Source: Saccoglossus kowalevskii
Lineage: Eukaryota; Hemichordata; Enteropneusta; Harrimaniidae
DNA: 37,687 bases
Assembly (NCBI RefSeq): GCF_000003605.2
Contig: NW_003121383.1
Coordinates: forward strand, 1 to 37,687
Direction: 5' to 3'
Each line of letters begins with the position of its first letter. Positions within the stretch are counted from its first letter, which is position 1. The notes beneath the pieces are model-generated. The model was not told the origin of the DNA. It did no database searches and saw only the letters and a program-made list of their open reading frames with translations. Positions 5,974-32,067 of this stretch are shown here, piece by piece. A program made the position numbers and the translations under genes.

Positions 5974-6947
5974 GGGGGAATTCTAATGGAATTACAACAA
6001 CTGTATACACATACAAGTGTTCACTGTGAGAGTTTGGGGAATTCTAATGGAATTACAACAACTGTATACACATACAAGTGTTCACTGTGAGAGTTGGGGG
6101 AATTCTAATGGAATTACAACAACTGTATACACATACAAGTGTTCACTGTGAGAGTTGGGGGAATTCTAATGGAATTACAACAACTGTATACACATACAAG
6201 TGTTCACTGTGAGAGTTGGGGGAATTCTAATGGAATTACAACAACTGTATACACATACAAGTGTTCACTGTGAGAGTTGGGGGAATTCTAATGAAATTAC
6301 AACAACTGTATATGCATACAAGTGTTCACTGTGAGAGTTGGGGGAATTCTAATGGAATTACAACAACTGTATACGCATACAAGTGTTCACTGTGAGAGTT
6401 GGGGGAATTCTAATGGAATTACAACAACTGTATACGCATACAAGTGTTCACTGTGAGAGTTGGGGGATTCTAATGGAATTACAACAACTGTATATGCATA
6501 CAAGTGTTCACTGTGAGAGTTGGGGGAATTCTAATGGAATTACAACAACTGTATACACATACAAGTGTTCACTGTGAGAGTTGGGGGAATTCTAATGGAA
6601 TTACAACAACTGTATACACATACAAGTGTTCACTGTGAGAGTTGGGGGAATTCTAATGGAATTACAACAACTGTATACACATACAAGTGTTCACTGTGAG
6701 AGTTGGGGGATTCTAATGGAATTACAACAACTGTATACGCATACAAGTGTTCACTGTGAGAGTTGGCGGAATTCTAATGGAATTACAACAACTGTATACG
6801 CATACAAGTGTTCACTGTGAGAGTTGGGGGAATTCTAATGAAATTACAACAACTGTATATGCATACAAGTGTTCACTGTGAGAGTTGGGGGAATTCCAAT
6901 GGAATTACAACAACTGTATACGCATACAAGTGTTCACTGTGAGAATT
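5974..6947. repeat. GG-head run rich in tatacac centres, with two 60-bp monomers
   Basis: Nearly all of the sixteen monomers have the gggggaattc head, and many consecutive ones have the tatacac centre. One head reads agtttgggga (near 6033). Two 60-bp GG monomers (6462-6521 and 6705-6764) sit 243 bp apart, the same spacing as the pair in Q modules, so this run may be an expanded and homogenised Q module. It ends with GG-k-T (6826) and ccaatgg (6887), as Q modules do. Confidence 0.82.
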
Positions 6948-8045
6948 GGGGGAATTCTAATGGAATTACAACAACTGTAAATGCATACAAGTGTTCACTG
7001 TGAGAGTTGGCGGAATTCTAATGGAATTAAAACAACTGTATACGCATACAAGTTTTCACTGTGAGAGTTGGCAGAATTGTAATGGAATTACAACAACTGT
7101 ATACGCATACAAGTTTTCACTGTGAGAGTTGGCAGAATTGTAATGGAATTACAACAACTGTATACGCATACAAGTGTTCACTGTGAGAGTTGGGAGAATT
7201 CTAATGGAATTACAACAACTGTATACGCATACAAGTGTTCACTGTGAGAGTTGGCGGATTTCTAATGGAATTACAACAACTGTATACGCATACAAGTGTT
7301 CACTGTGAGAGTTGGCGGAATTCTAATGGAATAACAACAACTGTATATGCATACAAGTGTTCACTGTGAGAGTTGACAGAATTCTAATGGAATTACAACA
7401 ACTGTATACACATACAAGTGTTCACTGTGAGAGTTGACAGAATTCTAATGGAATAACAACAACTGTATACGCATACAAGTGTTCACTGTGAGAGTTGGCG
7501 GAATTCTAATGGAATAACAACAACTGTATATGCATACAAGTGTTCACTGTGAGAGTTGACAGAATTCTAATGGAATTACAACAACTGTATACACATACAA
7601 GTGTTCACTGTGAGAGTTGACAGAATTCTAATGGAATAACAACAACTGTATACGCATACAAGTGTTCACTGTGAGAGTTGGCGGAATTCTAATGGAATTA
7701 CAACAACTGTATATGCATACAAGTGTTCACTGTGAGAGTTGACAGAATTCTAATGGAATTACAACAACTGTATACGCATACAAGTGTTCACTGTGAGAGT
7801 TGGCAGAATTCTAATGGAATTACAACAACTGTATACGCATACAAGTGTTCACTGTGAGAATTGGGGGAATTCTAATGGAATTACAACAACTGTAAATGCA
7901 TACAAGTGTTCACTGTGAGAGTTGGCGGAATTCTAATGGAATTAAAACAACTGTATACGCATACAAGTTTTCACTGTGAGAGTTGGCAGAATTGTAATGG
8001 AATTACAACAACTGTATACGCATACAAGTGTTCACTGTGAGAGTT
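6948..8045. repeat. 915-bp (15-monomer) tandem duplication, second copy partial
   Basis: A distinctive pair of marks, gagaatt before the head and gtaaatgc in the centre, begins a block at 6948 and again at 7863, exactly 15 x 61 = 915 bp apart. Both are followed by attaaaac with aagttttc and then a gaattgtaatgg monomer. The first copy has two successive gaattgtaatgg monomers (7070, 7131), the second has one (7985). After 8046 the two copies share GA and CGt and then diverge. Confidence 0.88.
7314..7679. repeat. 183-bp trimer repeated twice
   Basis: CG-o-T, AC-n-A, AC-o-C occupies 7314-7496 and is repeated at 7497-7679 without visible differences. It is nested inside the first copy of the 915-bp duplication. 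Confidence 0.88.
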
Positions 8046-10970: not shown

Positions 10971-11824
10971 GGGGGAATTCTAATGGAATTACAACAACTG
11001 TATACGCATACAAGTGTTCACTGTGAGAGTTGGGGGAATTCTAATGGAATTACAACAACTGTATATGCATACAAGTGTTCACTGTGAGAGTTGGGGGAAT
11101 TCTAATGGAATTACAACAACTGTATACACATACAAGTGTTCACTGTGAGAGTTGGGGGAATTCTAATGGAATTACAACAACTGTATACACATACAAGTGT
11201 TCACTGTGAGAGTTGGGGGAATTCTAATGAAATAACAACAACTGTATACACATACAAGTGTTCACTGTGAGAATTGGGGGAATTCTAATGGAATTACAAC
11301 AACTGTATACACATACAAGTGTTCACTGTGAGAGTTGGGGGAATTCTAATGGAATTACAACAACTGTATACACATACAAGTGTTCACTGTGAGAGTTGGG
11401 GGAATTCTAATGGAATTACAACAACTGTATACACATACAAGTGTTCACTGTGAGAGTTGGGAGAATTCTAATGGAATTACAACAACTGTATACACATACA
11501 AGTGTTCACTGTGAGAGTTGGGGGAATTCTAATGGAATTACAACAACTGTATACACATACAAGTGTTCACTGTGAGAGTTGGGGGAATTCTAATGGAATT
11601 ACAACAACTGTATACACATACAAGTGTTCACTGTGAGAGTTGGGGGAATTCTAATGAAATTACAACAACTGTATATGCATACAAGTGTTCACTGTGAGAG
11701 TTGGGGGAATTCTAATGGAATTACAACAACTGTATACGCATACAAGTGTTCACTGTGAGAGTTGGGGGAATTCTAATGGAATTACAACAACTGTATACGC
11801 ATACAAGTGTTCACTGTGAGAGTT
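10971..11824. repeat. Homogenised GG-head run, mostly tatacac centres
   Basis: Fourteen consecutive monomers, almost all GG-head and about half with tatacac. One monomer combines the k and o changes (taatgaaataac, 11215-11275) and is followed by gagaatt. The same k+o monomer occurs at 27616, also among GG-A monomers. The run resembles 5974-6947 in composition, suggesting shared origin. Confidence 0.85.
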
Positions 11825-12798
11825 GGCAGAATTCTAATGGAATAACAACAACTGTATACGCATACAAGTGTTCACTGTGAGAGTTGGGAGATTTCTAATG
11901 GAATTACAACAACTGTATACGCATACAATTGTTCACTGTGAGAGTTGGCAGAATTCTAATGGAATAACAACAACTGTATATGCATACAAGTGTTCACTGT
12001 GAGAGTTGGGAGAATTCTAATGAAATTACAACAACTGTATATGCATACAAGTGTTCACTGTGAGAGTTGGCGGAATTCTAATGGAATAACAACAACTGTA
12101 TATGCATACAAGTGTTCAATGTGAGAGTTGGGAGAATTCTAATGGAATTACAACAACTGTATACACATACAAGTGTTCACTGTGAGAGTTGGCGGAATTC
12201 TAATGAAATTACAACAACTGTATACGCATACAAGTGTTCACTGAGAGTTGGCAGAATTCTAATGGAATTACAACAACTGTATATGCATACAATTGTTCAC
12301 TGTGAGAGTTGGCAGAATTCTAATGGAATAACAACAACTGTATACACATACAAGTGTTCACTGTGAGAGTTGGCGGAATTCTAATGAAATTACAACAACT
12401 GTATATGCATACAAGTGTTCACTGTGAGAGTTGGCGGAATTCTAATGGAATAACAACAACTGTATATGCATACAAGTGTTCAATGTGAGAGTTGGGAGAA
12501 TTCTAATGGAATTACAACAACTGTATACACATACAAGTGTTCACTGTGAGAGTTGGCGGAATTCTAATGAAATTACAACAACTGTATATGCATACAAGTG
12601 TTCACTGTGAGAGTTGGCAGAATTCTAATGGAATTACAACAACTGTATATGCATACAAGTGTTTACTGTGAGAGTTGACAGAATTCTAATGGAATTACAA
12701 CAACTGTATACACATACAAGTGTTCACTGTGAGAGTTGGGGGAATTCTAATGGAATTACAACAACTGTATACGCATACAAGTGTTCACTGTGAGAGTT
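11825..12798. repeat. 974-bp P-tail block, twin of 24083-25056
   Basis: Sixteen monomers: CA-o-C, GAt with caattg, CA-o-T, GA-k-T, CG-o with ttcaatg, GA-A, 59-bp CG-k-C, CA-T with caattg, CA-o-A, CG-k-T, CG-o with ttcaatg, GA-A, CG-k-T, CA-T with tttac, AC-A, GG-C. Every variant site I compared agrees with 24083-25056 at a constant offset of 12258 bp. The monomers before both copies differ, which marks a sharp left boundary. Confidence 0.92.
12191..12249. repeat. 59-bp monomer (TG deleted from the tail)
   Basis: CG-k-C monomer with ttcactgagag, slot 31 of the cycle, between GA-A and CA-T with caattg. Confidence 0.92.
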
Positions 12799-13839
12799 GG
12801 GAGAATTCTAATGGAATTACAACAACTATATACGCATACAAGTGTTCACTGTGAGAGTTGGCGGATTTCTAATGGAATTACAACAACTGTATACGCATAC
12901 AAGTGTTCACTGTGAGAGTTGGGAGAATTCTAATGGAATTACAACAACTGTATACGCATACAAGTGTTCACTGTGAGAGTTGGCGGATTTCTAATGGAAT
13001 TACAACAACTGTATACGCATACAAGTGTTCACTGTGAGAGTTGGCAGAATTCTAATGGAATAACAACAACTGTATACGCATACAAGTGTTCACTGTGAGA
13101 GTTGGCGGAATTCTAATGGAATTACAACAACTGTATACGCATACAAGTGTTCACTGTGAGAGTTGACAGAATTCTAATGGAATTACAACAACTGTATACA
13201 CATACAAGTGTTCACTGTGAGAGTTGGGGGAATTCTAATGGAATTACAACAACTGTATACGCATACAAGTGTTCACTGTGAGAGTTGGCGGAATTCTAAT
13301 GGAATTACAACAACTGTATACGCATATATACAAGTGTTCACTGTGAGAGTTGGGAGAATTCTAATGGAATTACAACAACTGTATACGCATACAAATGTTC
13401 ACTGTGAGAGTTGGCAGAATTCTAATGGAATAACAACAACTGTATACGCATACAAGTGTTCACTGTGAGAGTTGGCGGAATTCTAATGGAATTACAACAA
13501 CTGTATATGCATACAAGTGTTTACTGTGAGAGTTGACAGAATTCTAATGGAATTACAACAACTGTATACGCATACAAGTGTTCACTGTGAGAGTTGGGGG
13601 AATTCTAATGGAATTACAACAACTGTATACGCATACAAGTGTTTACTGTGAGAGTTGACAGAATTCTAATGGAATTACAACAACTGTATACGCATACAAG
13701 TGTTTACTGTGAGAGTTGACAGAATTCTAATGGAATTACAACAACTGTATACACATACAAGTGTTCACTGTGAGAGTTGGGGGAATTCTAATGGAATTAC
13801 AACAACTGTATACGCATACAAGTGTTCACTGTGAGAGTT
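12799..13839. repeat. Slots 41-46 followed by a 65-bp monomer and AC/tttac series
   Basis: ctatatac, CGt, GA, CGt, CA-o-C, CG-C, then AC-A, GG-C and a 65-bp CG monomer (13287-13351). From 13413 the string CA-o-C, CG with tttac, AC, GG with tttac, AC with tttac, AC-A, GG, ctatatac, CGt, GA (to 14022) matches 32678-33287 at an offset of 19265 bp. Confidence 0.87.
13287..13351. repeat. 65-bp monomer with 4-bp TATA-type insertion
   Basis: The centre reads gcatatatacaag rather than gcatacaag, adding four bases. It is followed by a GA monomer with a private caaatg change. The insertion is slot-specific: the other three copies follow AC-A and GG-C in the same way. Confidence 0.92.
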
Positions 13840-14510: not shown

Positions 14511-16830
14511 GGCGGAATTCTAATGGAATTAAAACAACTGTATACGCATACAAGTGTTCACTGTGAGAGTTGGCGGGATTCTAATGGAATTACAACAACT
14601 GTATATGCATACAAGTGTTCACTGTGAGAGTTGGCGGAATTCTAATGGAATTACAACAACTGTATACACATACAAGTGTTCACTGTGAGAGTTGGCAGAA
14701 TTTTAATGGAATTACAACAACTGTATACGCATACAAGTGTTCACTGTGAGAGTTGGCGGATTTCTAATGGAATTACAACAACTGTATACGCATACAAGTG
14801 TTCACTGTGAGAGTTGGCAGAATTCTAATGGAATAACAACAACTGTATATGCATACAAGTGTTCACTGTGAGAGTTGGGAGAATTCTAATGGAATTACAA
14901 CAACTGTATACGCATACAAGTGTTCACTGTGAGAGTTGGCAGAATTCTAATGAAATTACAACAACTGTATATGCATACATGTGTTCACTGTGAGAGTTGG
15001 CGGAATTCTAATGGAATTACAACAACTGTATATGCATACAAGTGTTCACTGTGAGAGTTGACAGAATTCTAATGGAATTACAACAACTGTATACACATAC
15101 AAGTGTTCACTGTGAGAGTTGGGGGAATTCTAATGGAATTACAACAACTGTATACGCATACAAGTGTTCACTGTGAGAGTTGGCGGAATTCTAATGGAAT
15201 TACAACAACTGTATACGCATATATACAAGTGTTCACTGTGAGAGTTGGGAGAATTCTAATGGAATTACAACAACTGTATACGCATACAAGTGTTCACTGT
15301 GAGAGTTGGCGGATTTCTAATGGAATTACAACAACTGTATACGCATACAAGTGTTCACTGTGAGAGTTGGCGGAATTCTAATGGAATTACAACAACTGTA
15401 TACACATACAAGTGTTCACTGTGAGAGTTGACAGAATTCTAATGGAATTACAACAACTGTATACGCATACAAGTGTTCACTGTGAGAGTTGGCGGAATTC
15501 TATTGAAATTACAACAACTGTATATGCATACAAGTGTTCACTGTGAGAGTTGGCGGAATTCTAATGGAATTACAACAACTGTTTATGCATACAAGTGTTC
15601 ACTGTGAGAGTCGGCAGAATTCTAATGGAATTACAACAACTGTATACACATACAAGTGTTCACTGTGAGAGTTGGGGGATTTCTAATGGAATTACAACAA
15701 CTGTATACGCATACAAGTGTTCACTGTGAGAGTTGGCAGAATTCTAATGGAATTACAACAACTGTATACACATACAAGTGTTCACTGTGAGAGTTGGCGG
15801 AATTCTAATGGAATTACAACAACTGTATACACATACAAGTGTTCACTGTGAGAGTTGGCAGAATTCTAATGGAATTACAACAACTGTATACGCATACAAG
15901 TGTTCACTGTGAGAGTTGGGAGAATTCTAATGGAATTACAACAACTGTATACGCATACAAGTGTTCACTGTGAGAGTTGGGAGAATTCTAATGGAATTAC
16001 AACAACTGTATACGCATACAAGTGTTCACTGTGAGAGTTGGCGGATTTCTAATGGAATTACAACAACTGTATACGCATACAAGTGTTCACTGTGAGAGTT
16101 GGCAGAATTCTAATGGAATAACAACAACTGTATACGCATACAAGTGTTCACTGTGAGAGTTGGTGGAATTCTAATGGAATTACAACAACTGTATATGCAT
16201 ACAAGTGTTCACTGTGAGAGTTGGGGGAATTCTAATGGAATTACAACAACTGTATACACATACAAGTGTTCACTGTGAGAGTTGGGGGATTCTAATGGAA
16301 TTACAACAACTGTATACGCATACAAGTGTTCACTGTGAGAGTTGGCGGAATTCTAATGGAATTACAACAACTGTATACGCATACAAGTGTTCACTGTGAG
16401 AGTTGGGGGAATTCTAATGAAATTACAACAACTGTATACGCATACAAGTGTTCACTGTGAGAGTTGGCGGAATTCTAATGGAATTACAACAACTGTATAC
16501 GCATACAAGTGTTCACTGTGAGAGTTGGGGAATTCTAATGGAATTACAACAACTGTATACGCATACAAGTGTTCACTGTGAGGATTGGGGGAATTCTAAT
16601 GAAATTACAACAACTGTATACGCATACAAGTGTTCACTGTGAGGATTGGGGGAATTCTAATGGAATTACAACAACTGTATATGCATACAAGTGTTCACTG
16701 TGAGAGTTGGGGGAATTCCAATGGAATTACAACAACTGTATACGCATACAAGTGTTCACTGTGAGAGTTGGGGGAATTCTAATGGAATTACAACAACTGT
16801 ATATGCATACAAGTGTTCACTGTGAGAGTT
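14511..16830. repeat. Short HOR cycle of 2320 bp (slots 1-25 joined to 46-55)
   Basis: From attaaaac at 14511 to the next attaaaac at 16831 lie 38 monomers in cycle order: tttt head (14694), CGt, CA-o-T, GA, CA-k with catgtg (14938), CG, AC-A, GG, 65-bp CG, GA, CGt, CG-A, AC, tattgaaatt (15491), tttatgc (15552), tcgg (15611), GGt, CA-A, CG-A, CA/GA/GA, CGt, CA-o-C (16101), then a jump to ggtgg-T (16162), GG-A, 60-bp GG, CG, GG-k, CG, 60-bp GG with gaggatt, GG-k, GG-T, ccaatgg, GG-T. About twenty slots (26-45) are missing. The first 549 bp match 29201-29749, including a private ggcgggattc at 14572 and 29262. Confidence 0.87.
15182..15246. repeat. 65-bp monomer with 4-bp TATA-type insertion
   Basis: CG-head monomer with gcatatatacaag, between GG-C and GA-C. 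This slot and its flanks recur at 33532 and 36096. Confidence 0.92.
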
Positions 16831-18109
16831 GGCGGAATTCTAATGGAATTAAAACAACTGTATACGCATACAAGTGTTCACTGTGAGAGTTGGCAGAATT
16901 TTAATGGAATTACAACAACTGTATACGCATACAAGTGTTCACTGTGAGAGTTGGGAGAATTCTAATGGAATTACAACAACTGTATACGCATACAAGTGTT
17001 CACTGTGAGAGTTGGCAGATTTCTAATGGAATTACAACAACTGTATATGCATACATGTGTTCACTGTGAGAGTTGGCAGAATTCTAATGGAATTACAACA
17101 ACTGTATATGCATACAAGTGTTCACTGTGAGAGTTGACAGAATTCTAATGGAATTACAACAACTGTATACACATACAAGTGTTCACTGTGAGAGTTGGGG
17201 GAATTCTAATGGAATTACAACAACTGTATACGCATACAAGTGTTCACTGTGAGAGTTGGGAGAATTCTAATGGAATTACAACAACTGTATACGCATACAA
17301 GTGTTCACTGTGAGAGTTGGCGGATTTCTAATGGAATTACAACAACTGTATACGCATACAAGTGTTCACTGTGAGAGTTGGGGGAATTCTAATGGAATTA
17401 CAACAACTGTATACACATACAAGTGTTCACTGTGAGAGTTGACAGAATTCTAATGGAATTACAACAACTGTATACGCATACAAGTGTTCACTGTGAGAGT
17501 TGGGGAATTCTAATGAAATTACAACAACTGTATATGCATACAAGTGTTCACTGTGAGAGTTGGCGGAATTCTAATGGAATTACAACAACTGTATATGCAT
17601 ACAAGTGTTCACTGTGAGAGTCGGCATAATTCTAATGGAATTACAACAACTGTATACACATACAAGTGTTCACTGTGAGAGTTGGGGGATTTCTAATGGA
17701 ATTACAACAACTGTATACACATACAAGTGTTCACTGTGAGAGTTGACAGAATTCTAATGGAATTACAACAACTGTATACGCATACAAGTGTTGACTGTGA
17801 GAGTTGGGGAATTCTAATGAAATTACAACAACTGTATATGCATACAAGTGTTCACTGTGAGAGTTGGCGGAATTCTAATGGAATTACAACAACTGTATAT
17901 GCATACAAGTGTTCACTGTGAGAGTCGGCATAATTCTAATGGAATTACAACAACTGTATATGCATACAAGTGTTCACTGTGAGAGTTGGCAGAATTCTAA
18001 TGGAATTACAACAACTGTATACACATACAAGTGTTCACTGTGAGAGTTGGCGGATTTCTAATGGAATTACAACAACTGTATACGCATACAAGTGTTCACT
18101 GTGAGAGTT
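16831..18109. repeat. Scrambled cycle start with hybrid monomers and a 304-bp duplication
   Basis: Starts attaaaac, tttt head, GA, then a monomer at 17014 with a unique ggcagatttc head plus tatatgc and catgtg, which looks like a fusion of two slots. From 17441 the five monomers AC-C, 60-bp GG-k (17502-17561), CG-T, tcgg-preceded ggcataattc (17623), GGt-A span 304 bp and are repeated from 17745, with the 60-bp monomer at 17806-17865 and ggcataattc at 17927. The ggcataattc head occurs only in these two monomers, so this duplication is local and recent. A private ttgactg lies near 17791. Confidence 0.85.
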
Positions 18110-18719
18110 GGGAGAATTCTAATGGAATTACAACAACTGTATACGCATACAAGTGTTCACTGTGAGAGTTGGCGGATTTCTAATGGAATTACAACAACTG
18201 TATACGCATACATGTGTTCACTGTGAGAGTTGGCAGAATTCTAATGGAATAACAACAACTGTATACGCATACAAGTGTTCACTGTGAGAGTTGGGAGATT
18301 TCTAATGGAATTACAACAACTGTATACGCATACAAGTGTTCACTGTGAGAGTTGGCAGAATTCTAATGGAATAACAACAACTGTATATGCATACAAGTGT
18401 TCACTGTGAGAGTTGGGAGAATTCTAATGGAATTACAACAACTGTATACGCATACAAGTGTTCACTGTGAGAGTTGGCGGATTTCTAATGGAATTACAAC
18501 AACTGTATACGCATACATGTGTTCACTGTGAGAGTTGGCAGAATTCTAATGGAATAACAACAACTGTATACGCATACAAGTGTTCACTGTGAGAGTTGGG
18601 AGATTTCTAATGGAATTACAACAACTGTATACGCATACAAGTGTTCACTGTGAGAGTTGGCAGAATTCTAATGGAATAACAACAACTGTATATGCATACA
18701 AGTGTTCACTGTGAGAGTT
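18110..18719. repeat. 305-bp five-monomer block repeated twice
   Basis: GA-C, CGt with catgtg, CA-o-C, GAt-C, CA-o-T fills 18110-18414 and is repeated at 18415-18719 with no visible difference. The CGt plus catgtg combination with tatacgc is seen only in these two monomers (18171, 18476). Confidence 0.9.
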
Positions 18720-19695
18720 GGGAGAATTCTAATGGAATTACAACAACTGTATACGCATACAAGTGTTCACTGTGAGAGTTGGCGGAATTCTAATGGAATT
18801 ACAACAACTGTATACGCATACAAGTGTTCACTGTGAGAGTTGGCGGATTTCTAATGGAATTACAACAACTGTATACGCATACAAGTGTTCACTGTGAGAG
18901 TTGGGAGAATTCTAATGGAATTACAACAACTGTATACGCATACAAGTGTTCACTGTGAGAGTTGGCAGAATTCTAATGGACTAACAACAACTGTATACGC
19001 ATACAAGTGTTCACTGTGAGAGTTGGGAGAATTCTAATGGAATTACAACAACTGTATACGCATACAAGTGTTCACTGTGAGAGTTGGGGGAATTCTAATA
19101 GAATTACAACAACTGTATACGCATACAAGTGTTCACTGTGAGAGTTGGGAGAATTCTAATGGAATTACAACAACTGTATACGCATACAAGTGTTCACTGT
19201 GAGAGTTGGGAGAATTCTAATGGAATTACAACAACTGTATACGCATACAAGTGTTCACTGTGAGAGTTGGCGGATTTCTAATGGAATTACAACAACTGTA
19301 TACGCATACAAGTGTTCACTGTGAGAGTTGGGAGAATTCTAATGGAATTACAACAACTGTATACGCATACAAGTGTTCACTGTGAGAGTTGGCGGATTTC
19401 TAATGGAATTACAACAACTGTATACGCATACAAGTGTTCACTGTGAGAGTTGGCAGAATTCTAATGGAATAACAACAACTGTATACGCATACAAGTGTTC
19501 ACTGTGAGAGTTGGCAGAATTCTAATGGAATAACAACAACTGTATATGCATACAAGTGTTCACTGTGAGAGTTGGGAGAATTCTAATGGAATTACAACAA
19601 CTGTATACGCATACAAGTGTTCACTGTGAGAGTTGGCGGATTTCTAATGGAATTACAACAACTGTATACGCATACAAGTGTTCACTGTGAGAGTT
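18720..19695. repeat. Mixed GA/CGt/CA-o segment
   Basis: Sixteen monomers dominated by GA-n-C and CGt-n-C with occasional CA-o. One core reads taatggactaac (18964), a private change, and one GG monomer has taatagaatt (19086). It appears to be an amplified stretch of the GA / CGt / CA-o units that make up slots 23-25 and 43-45. No non-satellite sequence is present. Confidence 0.82.
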
Positions 19696-21828: not shown

Positions 21829-22619
21829 GGCGGAATTCTAATGGAATTACAACAACTGTATATGCATACAAGTGTTCACTGTGAGAGTTGGGGGAATTCT
21901 AATGGAATTACAACAACTGTATACACATACAAGTGTTCACTGTGAGAGTTGGGGGATTCTAATGGAATTACAACAACTGTATACGCATACAAGTGTTCAC
22001 TGTGAGAGTTGGCGGAATTCTAATGGAATTACAACAACTGTATACGCATACAAGTGTTCACTGTGAGAGTTGGGGGAATTCTAATGGAATTACAACAACT
22101 GTATACGCATACAAGTGTTCACTGTGAGAGTTGGCGAAATTCTAATGGAATTACAACAACTGTATACGCATACAAGTGTTCACTGTGAGAGTTGGGGAAT
22201 TCTAATGGAATTACAACAACTGTATACGCATACAAGTGTTCACTGTGAGGATTGGGGGAATTCTAATGAAATTACAACAACTGTATATGCATACAAGTGT
22301 TCACTGTGAGAGTTGGGAGAATTCTAATGGAATTACAACAACTGTATACGCATACAAGTGTTCACTGTGAGAGTTGGGGGAATTCCAATGGAATTACAAC
22401 AACTGTATACGCATACAAGTGTTCACTGTGAGAGTTGGGGGAATTCTAATGGAATTACAACAACTGTATATGCATACAAGTGTTCACTGTGAGAGTTGGG
22501 GGAATTCCAATGGAATTACAACAACTGTATACGCATACAAGTGTTCACTGTGAGAGTTGGGGGAATTCTAATGGAATTACAACAACTGTATATGCATACA
22601 AGTGTTCACTGTGAGAGTT
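21829..22619. repeat. Q module copy 3 with a duplicated ccaatgg/GG pair
   Basis: CG-T, GG-A, 60-bp GG (21951-22010), CG, GG, ggcgaaattc (22133), 60-bp GG with gaggatt (22194-22253), GG-k-T, an added GA-C (22315), then ccaatgg plus GG-T twice (22376-22497, 22498-22619), a 122-bp dimer duplication. It leads straight into attaaaac at 22620, which is the link that closes the HOR cycle. Confidence 0.9.
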
Positions 22620-24082
22620 GGCGGAATTCTAATGGAATTAAAACAACTGTATACGCATACAAGTGTTCACTGTGAGAGTTGGCAGAATTTTAATGGAATT
22701 ACAACAACTGTATACGCACACAAGTGTTCACTGTGAGAGTTGGCGGATTTCTAATGGAATTACAACAACTGTATATGCATACAAGTGTTCACTGTGAGAG
22801 TTGGCAGAATTTTAATGGAATTACAACAACTGTATACGCACACAAGTGTTCACTGTGAGAGTTGGCGGATTTCTAATGGAATTACAACAACTGTATATGC
22901 ATACAAGTTTTCACTGTGAGAGTTGGCGGAATTCTAATGGAATAACAACAACTGTATATGCATACAAGTGTTCACTGTGAGAGTTGGGAGAATTCTAATG
23001 GAATTACAACAACTGTATACGCATACAAGTGTTCACTGTGAGAGTTGGCAGAATTCTAATGAAATTACAACAACTGTATATGCATACATGTGTTCACTGT
23101 GAGAGTTGGCGGAATTCTAATGGAATTACAACAACTGTATATGCATACAAGTGTTCACTGTGAGAGTTGACAGAATTCTAATGGAATTACAACAACTGTA
23201 TACACATACAAGTGTTCACTGTGAGAGTTGGGGGAATTCTAATGGAATTACAACAACTGTATACGCATACAAGTGTTCACTGTGAGAGTTGGCGGAATTC
23301 TAATGGAATTACAACAACTGTATACGCATACAAGTGTTCACTGTGAGAGTTGGGAGAATTCTAATAGAATTACAACAACTGTATACGCATACAAGTGTTC
23401 ACTGTGAGAGTTGGCGGATTTCTAATGGAATTACAACAACTGTATACGCATACAAGTGTTCACTGTGAGAGTTGGCGGAATTCTAATGGAATTACAACAA
23501 CTGTATACACATACAAGTGTTCACTGTGAGAGTTGACAGAATTCTAATGGAATTACAACAACTGTATACGCATACAAGTGTTCACTGTGAGAGTTGGGGA
23601 ATTCTATTGAAATTACAACAACTGTATATGCATACAAGTGTTCACTGTGAGAGTTGGCGGAATTCTAATGGAATTACAACAACTGTTTATGCATACAAGT
23701 GTTCACTGTGAGAGTCGGCAGAATTCTAATGGAATTACAACAACTGTATACACATACAAGTGTTCACTGTGAGAGTTGGGGGATTTCTAATGGAATTACA
23801 ACAACTGTATACGCATACAAGTGTTCACTGTGAGAGTTGGCAGAATTCTAATGGAATTACAACAACTGTATACACATACAAGTGTTCACTGTGAGAGTTG
23901 GCGGAATTCTAATGGAATTACAACAACTGTATACACATACAAGTGTTCACTGTGAGAGTTGGGAGAATTCTAATGGAATTACAACAACTGTATACGCATA
24001 CAAGTGTTCACTGTGAGAGTTGGCGGATTTGTAATGGAATTACAACAACTGTATACGCATACAAGTGTTCACTGTGAGAGTT

Positions 24083-25056
24083 GGCAGAATTCTAATGGAA
24101 TAACAACAACTGTATACGCATACAAGTGTTCACTGTGAGAGTTGGGAGATTTCTAATGGAATTACAACAACTGTATACGCATACAATTGTTCACTGTGAG
24201 AGTTGGCAGAATTCTAATGGAATAACAACAACTGTATATGCATACAAGTGTTCACTGTGAGAGTTGGGAGAATTCTAATGAAATTACAACAACTGTATAT
24301 GCATACAAGTGTTCACTGTGAGAGTTGGCGGAATTCTAATGGAATAACAACAACTGTATATGCATACAAGTGTTCAATGTGAGAGTTGGGAGAATTCTAA
24401 TGGAATTACAACAACTGTATACACATACAAGTGTTCACTGTGAGAGTTGGCGGAATTCTAATGAAATTACAACAACTGTATACGCATACAAGTGTTCACT
24501 GAGAGTTGGCAGAATTCTAATGGAATTACAACAACTGTATATGCATACAATTGTTCACTGTGAGAGTTGGCAGAATTCTAATGGAATAACAACAACTGTA
24601 TACACATACAAGTGTTCACTGTGAGAGTTGGCGGAATTCTAATGAAATTACAACAACTGTATATGCATACAAGTGTTCACTGTGAGAGTTGGCGGAATTC
24701 TAATGGAATAACAACAACTGTATATGCATACAAGTGTTCAATGTGAGAGTTGGGAGAATTCTAATGGAATTACAACAACTGTATACACATACAAGTGTTC
24801 ACTGTGAGAGTTGGCGGAATTCTAATGAAATTACAACAACTGTATATGCATACAAGTGTTCACTGTGAGAGTTGGCAGAATTCTAATGGAATTACAACAA
24901 CTGTATATGCATACAAGTGTTTACTGTGAGAGTTGACAGAATTCTAATGGAATTACAACAACTGTATACACATACAAGTGTTCACTGTGAGAGTTGGGGG
25001 AATTCTAATGGAATTACAACAACTGTATACGCATACAAGTGTTCACTGTGAGAGTT
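24083..25056. repeat. 974-bp P-tail block, twin of 11825-12798
   Basis: Same sixteen monomers in the same variant states as 11825-12798. The right end is marked by a 122-bp insertion (CA-A, CG-k-T), after which the order resumes with ctatatac at 25179, exactly 122 bp further from its counterpart at 12799. Confidence 0.92.
24449..24507. repeat. 59-bp monomer (TG deleted from the tail)
   Basis: CG-k-C with ttcactgagag, slot 31, inside the 974-bp twin block. Confidence 0.92.
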
Positions 25057-25178
25057 GGCAGAATTCTAATGGAATTACAACAACTGTATACACATACAAG
25101 TGTTCACTGTGAGAGTTGGCGGAATTCTAATGAAATTACAACAACTGTATATGCATACAAGTGTTCACTGTGAGAGTT

Positions 25179-25971
25179 GGGAGAATTCTAATGGAATTAC
25201 AACAACTATATACGCATACAAGTGTTCACTGTGAGAGTTGGCGGATTTCTAATGGAATTACAACAACTGTATACGCATACAAGTGTTCACTGTGAGAGTT
25301 GGGAGAATTCTAATGGAATTACAACAACTGTATACGCATACAAGTGTTCACTGTGAGAGTTGGCGGATTTCTAATGGAATTACAACAACTGTATACGCAT
25401 ACAAGTGTTCACTGTGAGAGTTGGCAGAATTCTAATGGAATAACAACAACTGTATACGCATACAAGTGTTCACTGTGAGAGTTGGCGGAATTCTAATGGA
25501 ATTACAACAACTGTATATGCATACAAGTGTTCACTGTGAGAGTTGGGGGAATTCTAATGGAATTACAACAACTGTATATGCATACAAGTGTTCACTGTGA
25601 GAGTTGGGAGAATTCTAATGGAATTACAACAACTATATACGCATACAAGTGTTCACTGTGAGAGTTGGCGGATTTCTAATGGAATTACAACAACTGTATA
25701 CGCATACAAGTGTTCACTGTGAGAGTTGGGAGAATTCTAATGGAATTACAACAACTGTATACGCATACAAGTGTTCACTGTGAGAGTTGGCGGATTTCTA
25801 ATGGAATTACAACAACTGTATACGCATACAAGTGTTCACTGTGAGAGTTGGCAGAATTCTAATGGAATAACAACAACTGTATACGCATACAAGTGTTCAC
25901 TGTGAGAGTTGGCGGAATTCTAATGGAATTACAACAACTGTATATGCATACAAGTGTTCACTGTGAGAGTT
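25179..25971. repeat. 427-bp seven-monomer duplication of slots 41-46
   Basis: ctatatac, CGt, GA, CGt, CA-o-C, CG-T, GG-T at 25179-25605, then ctatatac, CGt, GA, CGt, CA-o-C, CG-T at 25606-25971, leading into the Q module. The same slots are duplicated independently, as a six-mer, at 13840. Confidence 0.88.
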
Positions 25972-26457
25972 GGGGGAATTCTAATGGAATTACAACAACT
26001 GTATACACATACAAGTGTTCACTGTGAGAGTTGGGGGATTCTAATGGAATTACAACAACTGTATACGCATACAAGTGTTCACTGTGAGAGTTGGCGGAAT
26101 TCTAATGGAATTACAACAACTGTATACGCATACAAGTGTTCACTGTGAGAGTTGGGGGAATTCTAATGGAATTACAACAACTGTATACGCATACAAGTGT
26201 TCACTGTGAGAGTTGGCGAAATTCTAATGGAATTACAACAACTGTATACGCATACAAGTGTTCACTGTGAGAGTTGGGGAATTCTAATGGAATTACAACA
26301 ACTGTATACGCATACAAGTGTTCACTGTGAGGATTGGGGGAATTCCAATGGAATTACAACAACTGTATACGCATACAAGTGTTCACTGTGAGAGTTGGGG
26401 GAATTCTAATGGAATTACAACAACTGTATATGCATACAAGTGTTCACTGTGAGAGTT

Positions 26458-27066
26458 GGTGGAATTCTAATGGAATTACAACAACTGTTTATGCATACAA
26501 GTGTTCACTGTGAGAGTCGGCAGAATTCTAATGGAATTACAACAACTGTATACACATACAAGTGTTCACTGTGAGAGTTGGGGGATTTCTAATGGAATTA
26601 CAACAACTGTATACGCATACAAGTGTTCACTGTGAGAGTTGGCAGAATTCTAATGGAATTACAACAACTGTATACACATACAAGTGTTCACTGTGAGAGT
26701 TGGCGGAATTCTAATGGAATTACAACAACTGTATACACATACAAGTGTTCACTGTGAGAGTTGGGAGAATTCTAATGGAATTACAACAACTGTATACGCA
26801 TACAAGTGTTCACTGTGAGAGTTGGCGGATTTCTAATGGAATTACACAACTGTATACGCATACAAGTGTTCACTGTGAGAGTTGGCAGAATTCTAATGGA
26901 ATAACAACAACTGTATACGCATACAAGTGTTCACTGTGAGAGTTGGGAGATTTCTAATGGAATTACAACAACTGTATACGCATACAATTGTTCACTGTGA
27001 GAGTTGGCAGAATTCTAATGGAATAACAACAACTGTATATGCATACAAGTGTTCACTGTGAGAGTT
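26458..27066. repeat. P module copy, entered from slot 55 by a junction
   Basis: A ggtggaattc monomer with tttatgc (26458) directly follows the Q module, then tcgg (26517), GGt, CA-A, CG-A, GA, a 60-bp CGt (26824-26883, attacacaac, one A lost), CA-o-C, GAt with caattg, CA-o-T. Slots 1-17 are missing. The 60-bp CGt is private to this copy. Confidence 0.88.
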
Positions 27067-28589
27067 GGGGGAATTCTAATGGAATTACAACAACTGTATA
27101 CACATACAAGTGTTCACTGTGAGAGTTGGCAGAATTCTAATGGAATTACAACAACTGTATACGCATACAAGTGTTCACTGTGAGAGTTGGCGGAATTCTA
27201 ATGGAATAACAACAACTGTATATGCATACAAGTGTTCAATGTGAGAGTTGGGAGAATTCTAATGGAATTACAACAACTGTATACACATACAAGTGTTCAC
27301 TATGAGAGTTGGCGGAATTCTAATGAAATTACAACAACTGTATATGCATACAAGTGTTCACTGTGAGAGTTGGCGGAATTCTAATGGAATTACAACAACT
27401 GTATATGCATACAAGTGTTTACTGTGAGAGTTGACAGAATTCTAATGGAATTACAACAACTGTATACACATACAAGTGTTCACTGTGAGAGTTGGGGGAA
27501 TTCTAATGGAATTACAACAACTGTATACGCATACAAGTGTTCACTGTGAGAGTTGGCAGAATTCTAATGGAATTACAACAACTGTATACACATACAAGTG
27601 TTCACTGTGAGAGTTGGGGGAATTCTAATGAAATAACAACAACTGTATACACATACAAGTGTTCACTGTGAGAGTTGGGGGAATTCTAATGGAATTACAA
27701 CAACTGTATACACATACAAGTGTTCACTGTGAGAGTTGGGGGAATTCTAATGGAATTACAACAACTGTATACACATACAAGTGTTCACTGTGAGAGTTGA
27801 CAGAATTCTAATGGAATTACAACAACTGTATACGCATACAAGTGTTCACTGTGAGAGTTGGCGGATTTCTAATGGAATTACAACAACTGTATACGCATAC
27901 AAGTGTTCACTGTGAGAGTTGGCAGAATTCTAATGGAATAACAACAACTGTATACGCATACAAGTGTTCACTGTGAGAGTTGGGAGATTTCTAATGGAAT
28001 TACAACAACTGTATACGCATACAATTGTTCACTGTGAGAGTTGGCAGAATTCTAATGGAATAACAACAACTGTATATGCATACAAGTGTTCACTGTGAGA
28101 GTTGGGAGAATTCTAATGAAATTACAACAACTGTATATGCATACAAGTGTTCACTGTGAGAGTTGGCGGAATTCTAATGGAATTACAACAACTGTATACG
28201 CATACAAGTGTTCACTGTGAGAGTTGGGAGAATTCTAATGGAATTACAACAACTGTATATGCATACAAGTGTTCACTGTGAGAGTCGGCAGAATTCTAAT
28301 GGAATTAAAACAACTGTATACGCATACAAGTGTTCACTGTGAGAGTTGGCAGAATTTTAATGGAATTACAACAACTGTATATGCATACAAGTGTTCACTG
28401 TGAGAGTTGGCGGAATTCTAATGAAATTACAACAACTGTATACGCATACAAGTGTTCACTGAGAGTTGGGGGAATTCCAATGGAATTACAACAACTGTAT
28501 ACGCATACAAGTGTTCACTGTGAGAGTTGGGGGAATTCTAATGGAATTACAACAACTGTATATGCATACAAGTATTCACTGTGAGAGTT
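27067..28589. repeat. Mixed segment with P-tail pieces and a hybrid tcgg/attaaaac monomer
   Basis: GG-A, CA-C, CG-o with ttcaatg, GA-A with ctatgag, CG-k, CG with tttac, AC-A, GG, CA-A, then the k+o GG monomer (27616) and two GG-A. CGt, CA-o-C, GAt with caattg, CA-o-T, GA-k-T (27860-28164) repeats slots 24-28. At 28287 one monomer carries both the tcgg mark of slot 19 and the attaaaac core of slot 1. A fifth 59-bp monomer (28409-28467) follows a tttt head rather than GA-A. Confidence 0.82.
28409..28467. repeat. 59-bp monomer in an atypical context
   Basis: CG-k-C with ttcactgagag, like the four others, but preceded by a tttt-head monomer and followed by ccaatgg. Its flanks therefore come from another part of the cycle. 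Confidence 0.92.
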
Positions 28590-29200
28590 GGCGGAATTCT
28601 AATGGAATTAAAACAACTGTATATGCATACAAGTGTTCACTGTGAGAGTTGGCAGAATTTTAATGGAATTACAACAACTGTATACACATACAAGTGTTCA
28701 CTGTGAGAGTTGGGGGAATTCTAATGGAATTACAACAACTGTATACGCATACAAGTGTTCACTGTGAGAGTTGGCAGAATTCTAATGGAATTACAACAAC
28801 TGTATACACATACAAGTGTTCACTGTGAGAGTTGGCGGAATTCTAATGAAATTACAACAACTGTATATGCATACAAGTGTTCACTGTGAGAGTTGGCGGA
28901 ATTCTAATGGAATTACAACAACTGTATACACATACAAGTGTTCACTGTGAGAGTTGGGGGAATTCTAATGGAATTACAACAACTGTATACGCATACAAGT
29001 GTTCACTGTGAGAGTTGGCAGAAATTCTAATGGAATTACAACAACTGTATACACGTACAAGTGTTCACTGTGAGAGTTGGCGGAATTCTAATGGAATTAC
29101 AACAACTGTATACGCATACAAGTGTTCACTGTGAGAGTTGGGAGAATTCTAATGGAATTACAACAACTGTATATGCATACAAGTGTTCACTGTGAGAGTT
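28590..29200. repeat. Mixed segment containing the only 62-bp monomer
   Basis: attaaaac with centre T, tttt head with centre A, GG, CA-A, CG-k, CG-A, GG, then a 62-bp CA monomer (29017-29078) with an extra A (cagaaattc) and a private acacgtac centre, then CG and GA-T. It does not match one continuous stretch of the HOR cycle. Confidence 0.82.
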
Positions 29201-31030: not shown

Positions 31031-32067
31031 GGCAGAATTCTAATGGAATTACAACAACTGTATACACATACAAGTGTTCACTGTGAGAGTTGGGCGATTT
31101 CTAATGGAATTACAACAACTGTATACGCATACAAGTGTTCACTGTGAGAGTTGGCAGAATTCTAATGGAATTACAACAACTGTATACACATACAAGTGTT
31201 CACTGTGAGAGTTGGCGGAATTCTAATGGAATTACAACAACTGTATACACATACAAGTGTTCACTGTGAGAGTTGGGAGAATTCTAATGGAATTACAACA
31301 ACTGTATACGCATACAAGTGTTCACTGTGAGAGTTGGCGGATTTCTAATGGAATTACAACAACTGTATACGCATACAAGTGTTCACTGTGAGAGTTGGCA
31401 GAATTCTAATGGAATAACAACAACTGTATACGCATACAAGTGTTCACTGTGAGAGTTGGGAGATTTCTAATGGAATTACAACAACTGTATACGCATACAA
31501 TTGTTCACTGTGAGAGTTGGCAGAATTCTAATGGAATAACAACAACTGTATATGCATACAAGTGTTCACTGTGAGAGTTGGGAGAATTCTAATGAAATTA
31601 CAACAACTGTATATGCATACAAGTGTTCACTGTGAGAGTTGGGGGAATTCCAATGGAATTACAACAACTGTATACGCATACAAGTGTTCACTGTGAGAGT
31701 TGGGGGAATTCTAATGGAATTAAAACAACTGTATATGCATACAAGTGTTCACTGTGAGAGTTGGCAGAATTTTAATGGAATTACAACAACTGTATACGCA
31801 TACAAGTGTTCACTGTGAGAGTTGGGAGAATTCTAATGGAATTACAACAACTGTATACGCATACAAGTGTTCACTGTGAGAGTTGGCGGATTTCTAATGG
31901 AATTACAACAACTGTATACGCATACAAGTGTTCACTGTGAGAGTTGGCGGAATTCTAATGGAATAACAACAACTGTATATGCATACAAGTGTTCAATGTG
32001 AGAGTTGGGAGAATTCTAATGGAATTACAACAACTGTATACACATACAAGTGTTCACTGTGAGAGTT
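31031..32067. repeat. P module copy joined to slots 54-5
   Basis: tcgg-marked CA-A, a gggcgatttc monomer (31092, private), CA-A, CG-A, GA, CGt, CA-o-C, GAt with caattg, CA-o-T, GA-k-T, then ccaatgg (31641), a GG-head attaaaac (31702), tttt head, GA, CGt, CG-o with ttcaatg, GA-A. It shares the slot 28 to 54 junction with the left end of the window, but slot 55 and slot 1 are fused into one monomer at 31702. Confidence 0.87.

Follow-up and report, generated by a model that had tools for sequence, protein, structure and literature searches.

The window analysed here, a stretch of 37,687 bases that makes up the whole of one contig (C1411), is a 61-bp satellite from end to end, without flank. Strings of monomer variants recur in this array in one local, partly cyclic order, the edge that closes the cycle also recurs, and beyond about ten monomers the sharing of strings stays flat over 37 kb. 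The array is a higher-order repeat (HOR) in the matching-block sense and fails the period test of the strict sense. It probably represents a private animal 61-bp satellite in which a higher-order unit of tens of monomers, with a ring of about 56, spread and was then repeatedly cut and recombined.

Monomers of the array

TRF analysis of the 37,687-base window returned a single 61-bp satellite array at 11-37687 (plus strand; 617.9 copies, 94% matches). Cutting at one anchor yielded 617 monomers, all in the same (+) orientation. They fall into 105 exact variants, and 43 of these are singletons. Monomers of 61 bp predominate (n=586) and are accompanied by monomers of 60 bp (n=21), 59 bp (n=5), 65 bp (n=4) and 62 bp (n=1); the length variants recur beside the same neighbours. 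The four 65-bp monomers, at 13297, 15192, 33542 and 36106, have a common four-base insertion and occur mostly in shared variant contexts.

The mean difference was 3.35 between adjacent monomers, 2.93 at a distance of two and 3.14-3.15 at distances of three to nine. From 10 to 615 monomers it stayed at 3.18-3.28 in every distance bin. Identity is independent of distance past about ten monomers, and a dependence of identity on distance alone, which the preliminary description had named as counter-evidence to a higher-order structure, was not found.

The two most variable site pairs of the monomer, positions 25-26 and 54-55, are both CpGs of the consensus. Deamination of methylated CpG turns CG into TG or CA. 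Positions 25-26 (n=586) read CG in 314 monomers, TG in 164, CA in 108 and TA in none; the presence of CG, TG and CA without TA fits what is expected of CpG decay. Positions 54-55 (n=586) read CG in 200 monomers, CA in 151, GG in 117, GA in 112, TG in 5 and GC in 1, and the G at position 54 is not accounted for by methyl-CpG deamination.

Recurrence of variant strings

Strings of variants were compared by exact identity with those of shuffled monomers. Repeated three-monomer strings were present at 329 of 615 positions against a shuffled mean of 11.5, and repeated five-monomer strings at 188 of 613 positions against 0.01 (200 shuffles). Strings of eight and ten monomers were repeated at 75 of 610 and 39 of 608 positions respectively, with a shuffled mean of 0 in both cases. 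The longest repeated run comprised 16 monomers as compared to 3-4 in 20 shuffles. The earlier claim that the same long strings of variants recur in a set order is thus borne out far above the shuffled level, and the order of variants is not that of shuffled monomers.

The longest exact repeat measures 1,027 bp. Its two copies, at 11774-12800 and 24032-25058 (both plus strand), are 12.3 kb apart, and the second lies within the region 22620-26457 described below. In seven places, moreover, a block of 2-6 monomers is followed directly by an exact copy of itself. Examples with exact monomer identity, all on the plus strand, are a six-monomer block duplicated in tandem at 804-1535, a five-monomer block at 18120-18729 and a three-monomer block at 7324-7689. 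What characterizes an irregular HOR is that blocks of at least three monomers return in unchanged order more often than chance allows, and such blocks are present in the array.

Period and unit length

The preliminary description proposed a HOR unit of about 3.1-3.4 kb, or 50-55 monomers, visible as diagonals at about 3 kb. A unit of this length was not supported. Match-by-lag profiles of the whole array showed scattered lags with no single standout and no common period, and no dominant lag was seen at about 3 kb. The return distances of three-monomer strings (n=227) peaked at 30-49 monomers (47 returns). The bins on either side were sparse (20-29 monomers, 3 returns; 50-59 monomers, 4 returns). 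Further clumps were found at 0-9 (22 returns), 110-119 (16) and 200-209 monomers (13). The mark attaaaac occurs twelve times in the window with a mean of one per 3.1 kb, as had been reported. Its gaps range from 303 to 6,587 bp (CV 0.69); the figure of 3.1 kb is therefore an average spacing and not a period.

The number of slots was assessed by held-out log-likelihood. A scheme of 56 slots (-1888) was level with a first-order chain (-1887), and 100 slots gave -1752. The best value was that of 100 slots, the largest number tried, with no optimum near 55. In the short-jump test from random starts, P was 0.21 at 55 slots and 0.04 at 52 slots. At 50, 54, 56, 57 and 60 slots it did not exceed 0.0035. 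The 55-slot scheme suggested earlier was thus selected neither by held-out likelihood nor by the short-jump test. A strict HOR consists of one canonical unit in tandem. The array has no dominant period and does not carry several complete units in tandem, its longest run covering 24 of 56 slots.

Order of marks and the closing edge

The order of marks that had been claimed for 22620-26457 agrees with the positions of the marks. The early marks are attaaaac (22637), tattgaaatt (23605), tttatgc (23686) and tcgg (23715). They are followed by caattg (24184 and 24548), a 59-bp monomer (24459) and gtttac (24919), and then by ctatatac (25206 and 25633), 60-bp monomers (25982 and 26225) and ccaatgg (26345). 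The most complete pass of the cycle, from attaaaac to ccaatgg, comprises monomers 371-432 at 22630-26406 (plus strand) and is supported by this mark order and by the ability of its ring to predict the rest of the array. The near-complete ordered set of marks is seen once, in 22620-26457; other passes skip or repeat parts.

The strings were further said to chain into a cycle, with ccaatgg leading back to attaaaac. In the array as a whole this closing edge was recovered: of the nine ccaatgg monomers, six have attaaaac no more than two monomers further on, as compared to a maximum of 3 in 20,000 random placements. The six instances, all on the plus strand, are at 194-376, 6897-7079, 16719-16901, 22508-22690 (the start of the reported region), 28478-28660 and 31651-31772, where the two monomers are adjacent. 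The end of the region itself, however, does not close. Past the ccaatgg at 26345 the array runs to tcgg, and the next attaaaac is 32 monomers on.

Ring tests on the array

A circular order of 23 marks, each present in 4-25 monomers and picked by count, was fitted on one half of the array and tested on the other. It required 33.9 turns where random rings required 50.4; for the reciprocal fit the figures were 24.2 and 42.1. None of 5,000 random rings matched the fitted ring in either direction.

A 56-slot ring was built from the region and neighbouring contexts (fit -1131.2 as against -1151.4 for the best of 60 random starts). This ring drew on places outside the region, and for this reason a ring made from the region only served as the strict held-out test. 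The region-only ring was derived from monomers 371-432 (62 monomers) by dropping nine (372-373 and 413-419), which left 53 slots, and was used to decode the 555 held-out monomers, with background variant frequencies taken from the whole array. Of 84 held-out junctions, 38 spanned no more than six slots, where 22.2 would be expected. Jumps averaged 9.5 as against 12.9, and none of 2,000 segment permutations gave a mean as short. Outside the region the closing edge was used 5 times, and no edge was used fewer than 2 times. With the uncollapsed 62-slot ring the corresponding values were 29 against 17.9 expected and 0 of 2,000, with the closing edge used 4 times. Among 185 other windows of the array, about 4% predict the rest better than the region does; the best of these, beginning at monomer 357, partly coincides with the region.

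On the 56-slot ring the array is decoded as 67 segments with a median length of 7 monomers and a maximum of 24, and no full turn is made without a jump. The 66 jumps are distributed over 62 distinct junctions, 32 being backward and 34 forward. Identity was 97.7% between monomers of the same slot and 94.7% between those of different slots, a contrast that is inflated because the same data had served to fit the slots. The ring order holds locally and across single breaks.

Simulated processes and origin of the array

Whether ring-like order requires a HOR was addressed by simulation. Among 14 arrays generated by tandem duplication without a HOR, short-jump P was 0.01 or less in 8, and every ring edge was used at least 4 times in 10. 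The real array, fitted in the same manner, gave a short-jump P of 0.004 and an edge-use minimum of 4. Ring-like order can thus arise without any HOR, and ring-likeness alone proves little. One common cyclic order has held-out support in the array, but similar ring-like values appear in simulations without a ring.

Six processes were then compared with the array by summary statistics, with 5,000 runs each. The 100 nearest runs comprised 51 of a ring with copying, 35 of copying alone and 14 of a ring with tandem events; the three tandem-only models contributed none. The best distances were 0.118 and 0.130 for the ring models, 0.136 for copying alone, and 0.200, 0.209 and 0.215 for the tandem-only models. 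Unit size in the ring models among the nearest runs was 34-120 monomers (5-95%), with a median of 69. Of the processes simulated, an ancestral ring with distance-independent segment exchange is the best fit.

These results are in keeping with the following scheme. A higher-order unit, made up of some tens of monomers that can be told apart and best represented by a ring of about 56 slots, would have spread to form the array. Short blocks may then have been shifted, both near and far, by unequal exchange, by gene conversion or by circles that were excised and reinserted. The blocks, with a median of 7 monomers between breaks, would have retained the ring order while the period was lost.

The nearest competitor, to which we assign a clearly smaller though appreciable probability, dispenses with the ancestral ring. 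The array would be a steady-state mosaic in which segments of about ten monomers are copied between random places, and the cycle would have been chained together after the fact. Copying alone accounts for more than a third of the nearest runs and its best distance is near those of the ring models, and the flat relation of identity to distance and the dispersal of the ring jumps over mostly different junctions are also in its favour. The same holds for the memory of order between matched places. This amounted to 3.06, 2.40, 1.78, 0.99 and 1.09 times the baseline at 10, 15, 20, 30 and 40 monomers. In 200 block-shuffled arrays the corresponding means were 1.70, 1.39, 1.28, 1.24 and 1.20, the maxima being 2.90, 2.80, 2.54, 2.38 and 2.15. 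The memory exceeds all block shuffles at 10 monomers only and is gone by 30, as copying alone would have it.

The mark ring and the closing edge argue against copying alone. In the real array the mark-ring ratio is 0.69 when held out and 0.56 for the whole fit. Simulated runs were kept only if they had 17-30 marks and 140-420 mark occurrences, which left 184 of 400 runs of copying alone, 65 of 120 of a ring with copying, 52 of 100 of a ring with tandem events and 69 of 150 of mixed-length tandem events. The held-out ratio was reached in 9 of the 184 runs of copying alone, the whole-fit ratio in 7 and both in 3. With a ring and copying the held-out ratio was reached in 23 of 65 runs and both ratios in 18. 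All 52 runs of a ring with tandem events were more ordered than the real array on the held-out ratio. The return of attaaaac after ccaatgg in 6 of 9 cases is a further point against random copying. Copying without a ring is therefore disfavoured, and an ancestral ring is the better explanation, short of being demonstrated.

Tandem duplication and deletion on many scales by unequal crossing-over, with no dominant unit, appears quite unlikely. This process produced the ring-like statistics of the 14 simulated arrays described above in 8 of them, reached the held-out ratio in 19 of 69 kept mixed-length runs and both ratios in 9, and is also favoured by the seven exact adjacent duplications. The tandem-only models are nevertheless the most distant from the array and absent from its nearest runs, and in the 14 arrays the density of matches mostly declines with distance, unlike in the real array. 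That the scrambled order is an artefact of a mis-joined or collapsed contig is very improbable: the contig is all satellite, without flank, and an assembler might be misled by exact repeats that reach 1,027 bp, but the breaks have a median spacing of 7 monomers (about 430 bp), shorter than long reads, the length variants recur with the same neighbours and unique variants make up only 43 of the 617 monomers.

Beyond the spread and scrambling of a higher-order unit, a wider picture can be drawn, which as a whole we regard as unlikely. In it, short blocks of several monomers are copied irrespective of distance, for example through extrachromosomal circles, and this homogenises the array: neighbouring monomers differ as much as monomers 37 kb apart, while strings of neighbours are kept. 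At the same time, the satellite would be confined to one locus without relics elsewhere, at a stage where one higher-order unit has gone and another is yet to arise.

Comparison with known repeats

Irregular HORs have been described in a human array of 61-bp repeats. At Xp22.33, an 18-kb array of a 61-bp VNTR contains irregular HORs, 1.6 and 2.5 kb in size, that are arranged in a complex way, according to the part of the report available (PMC2588610), and the array studied here thus belongs to a known kind. The two are alike in having a 61-bp repeat with irregular HORs, a likeness at the level of description. As far as that part of the report goes, the Saccoglossus array differs in being longer, in having no standout unit length, in lying on an unplaced contig and in coming from another animal. 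A 61-bp repeat is also mentioned for the human Y chromosome in the accessible portion of another source (PMC2817707).

Units of more than 50 monomers are known. The orangutan Y chromosome carries a cascading 58mer alpha-satellite superHOR of 171-bp monomers, with 44 monomer types in 58, a dominant period of 58, a divergence of 0.25% between canonical copies and variants with row insertions and deletions (PMC12428378, in the section available). The large unit, the recurrence of monomer types inside it and the insertion and deletion variants resemble what is proposed here, whereas the 61-bp array has neither canonical copies nor a dominant period. A 52mer is reported for human chromosome 21 in the excerpt at hand (PMC12385485).

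In the portion of the TRASH description that deals with Arabidopsis CEN178, HORs are pairs of matching blocks of at least three monomers, and no fixed period is needed (PMC10199239). The 61-bp array is similar in that blocks of at least three monomers recur at many distances. The default tolerance given there is five differences, which nearly any pair of monomers would pass at a mean difference of 3.2; for this reason exact identity was used here instead. Satellite-derived extrachromosomal circles of plants come in multiples of the monomer or HOR length, going by the available text of one study (PMC2543021), and by analogy such circles are a candidate route for the long-range spread of short blocks. 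The array is a degraded example of a known repeat organisation, the irregular HOR, with a monomer that has no match in the sources searched.

Arrays listed as simple satellites may hide scrambled higher-order structure that is missed by period-based tools; TRF reported one 61-bp array here and nothing further. Strings that are kept together with a near-flat curve of identity against distance distinguish local tandem duplication from longer-range exchange, and the two combined are a usable statistic for the mode of satellite homogenisation. The importance of the array would be greatest if a sister species has retained an intact unit.

Coding potential and occurrence elsewhere

The 31 open reading frames of at least 60 aa in the array (64-86 aa, all on the plus strand) were rejected as genes; they sit where 59-, 60- and 65-bp monomers shift the frame. 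A search of 22500-26500 for RNA families gave nothing convincing among three matches with E values up to 5, the best being SNORD62 (E 1), whose 21.4 bits fall short of the gathering score, 39. The hairpin of one monomer had a DNA fold z of -0.34, with 65 of 200 shuffles folding equally well, and one weak inverted repeat was found in 171 bases. The array most likely behaves as an ordinary non-coding satellite.

The assembly searched comprises 572.1 Mb in 4,830 contigs. A 30-base attaaaac pattern had 12 matches, all in this contig. A 20-base monomer pattern with up to 2 mismatches gave 613 forward and 0 reverse matches in the assembly, and 613 in the window. A second monomer pattern gave 689 forward and 50 reverse matches, of which the window accounts for 618 and 0. 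The remaining 71 forward and 50 reverse matches compare with 56 and 75 for a backward control. Contig C974, which holds one match to the second pattern, contained no satellite by loose whole-monomer matching. No other copy of the satellite was thus found in the searchable assembly at up to 2 mismatches in 20 bases; 5 of 16 stretches sampled elsewhere were all N, and part of the genome is therefore not visible to the search. Within the searchable assembly the satellite appears to be confined to this contig. Phage sequences gave no match to 401 bases of the array, one degenerate 35-base pattern had no exact match in genomic or viral contig collections, and six monomer stretches were not found in literature text.

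Some observations were made on other contigs of the assembly. C366 and C685 contain long open frames of short tandem peptide repeats, for example around HPRFICNIIHSVI and TTFTSSECLDI, which are probably other tandem repeats of the same genome. A 554-aa open frame belongs to the rhodopsin-like receptor family. The mitochondrial-like contig C4830 (17,037 bp) has a COX1 with 7 TGA codons, two rRNAs and 15 tRNA matches. Together with the receptor frame these features indicate that the genome is that of an animal, probably a bilaterian. COX1 is on the strand opposite to the rRNAs, the order being tRNA-Phe, small rRNA, large rRNA and tRNA-Leu(taa), and ATA, judged by eye, seemed to fit Ile.
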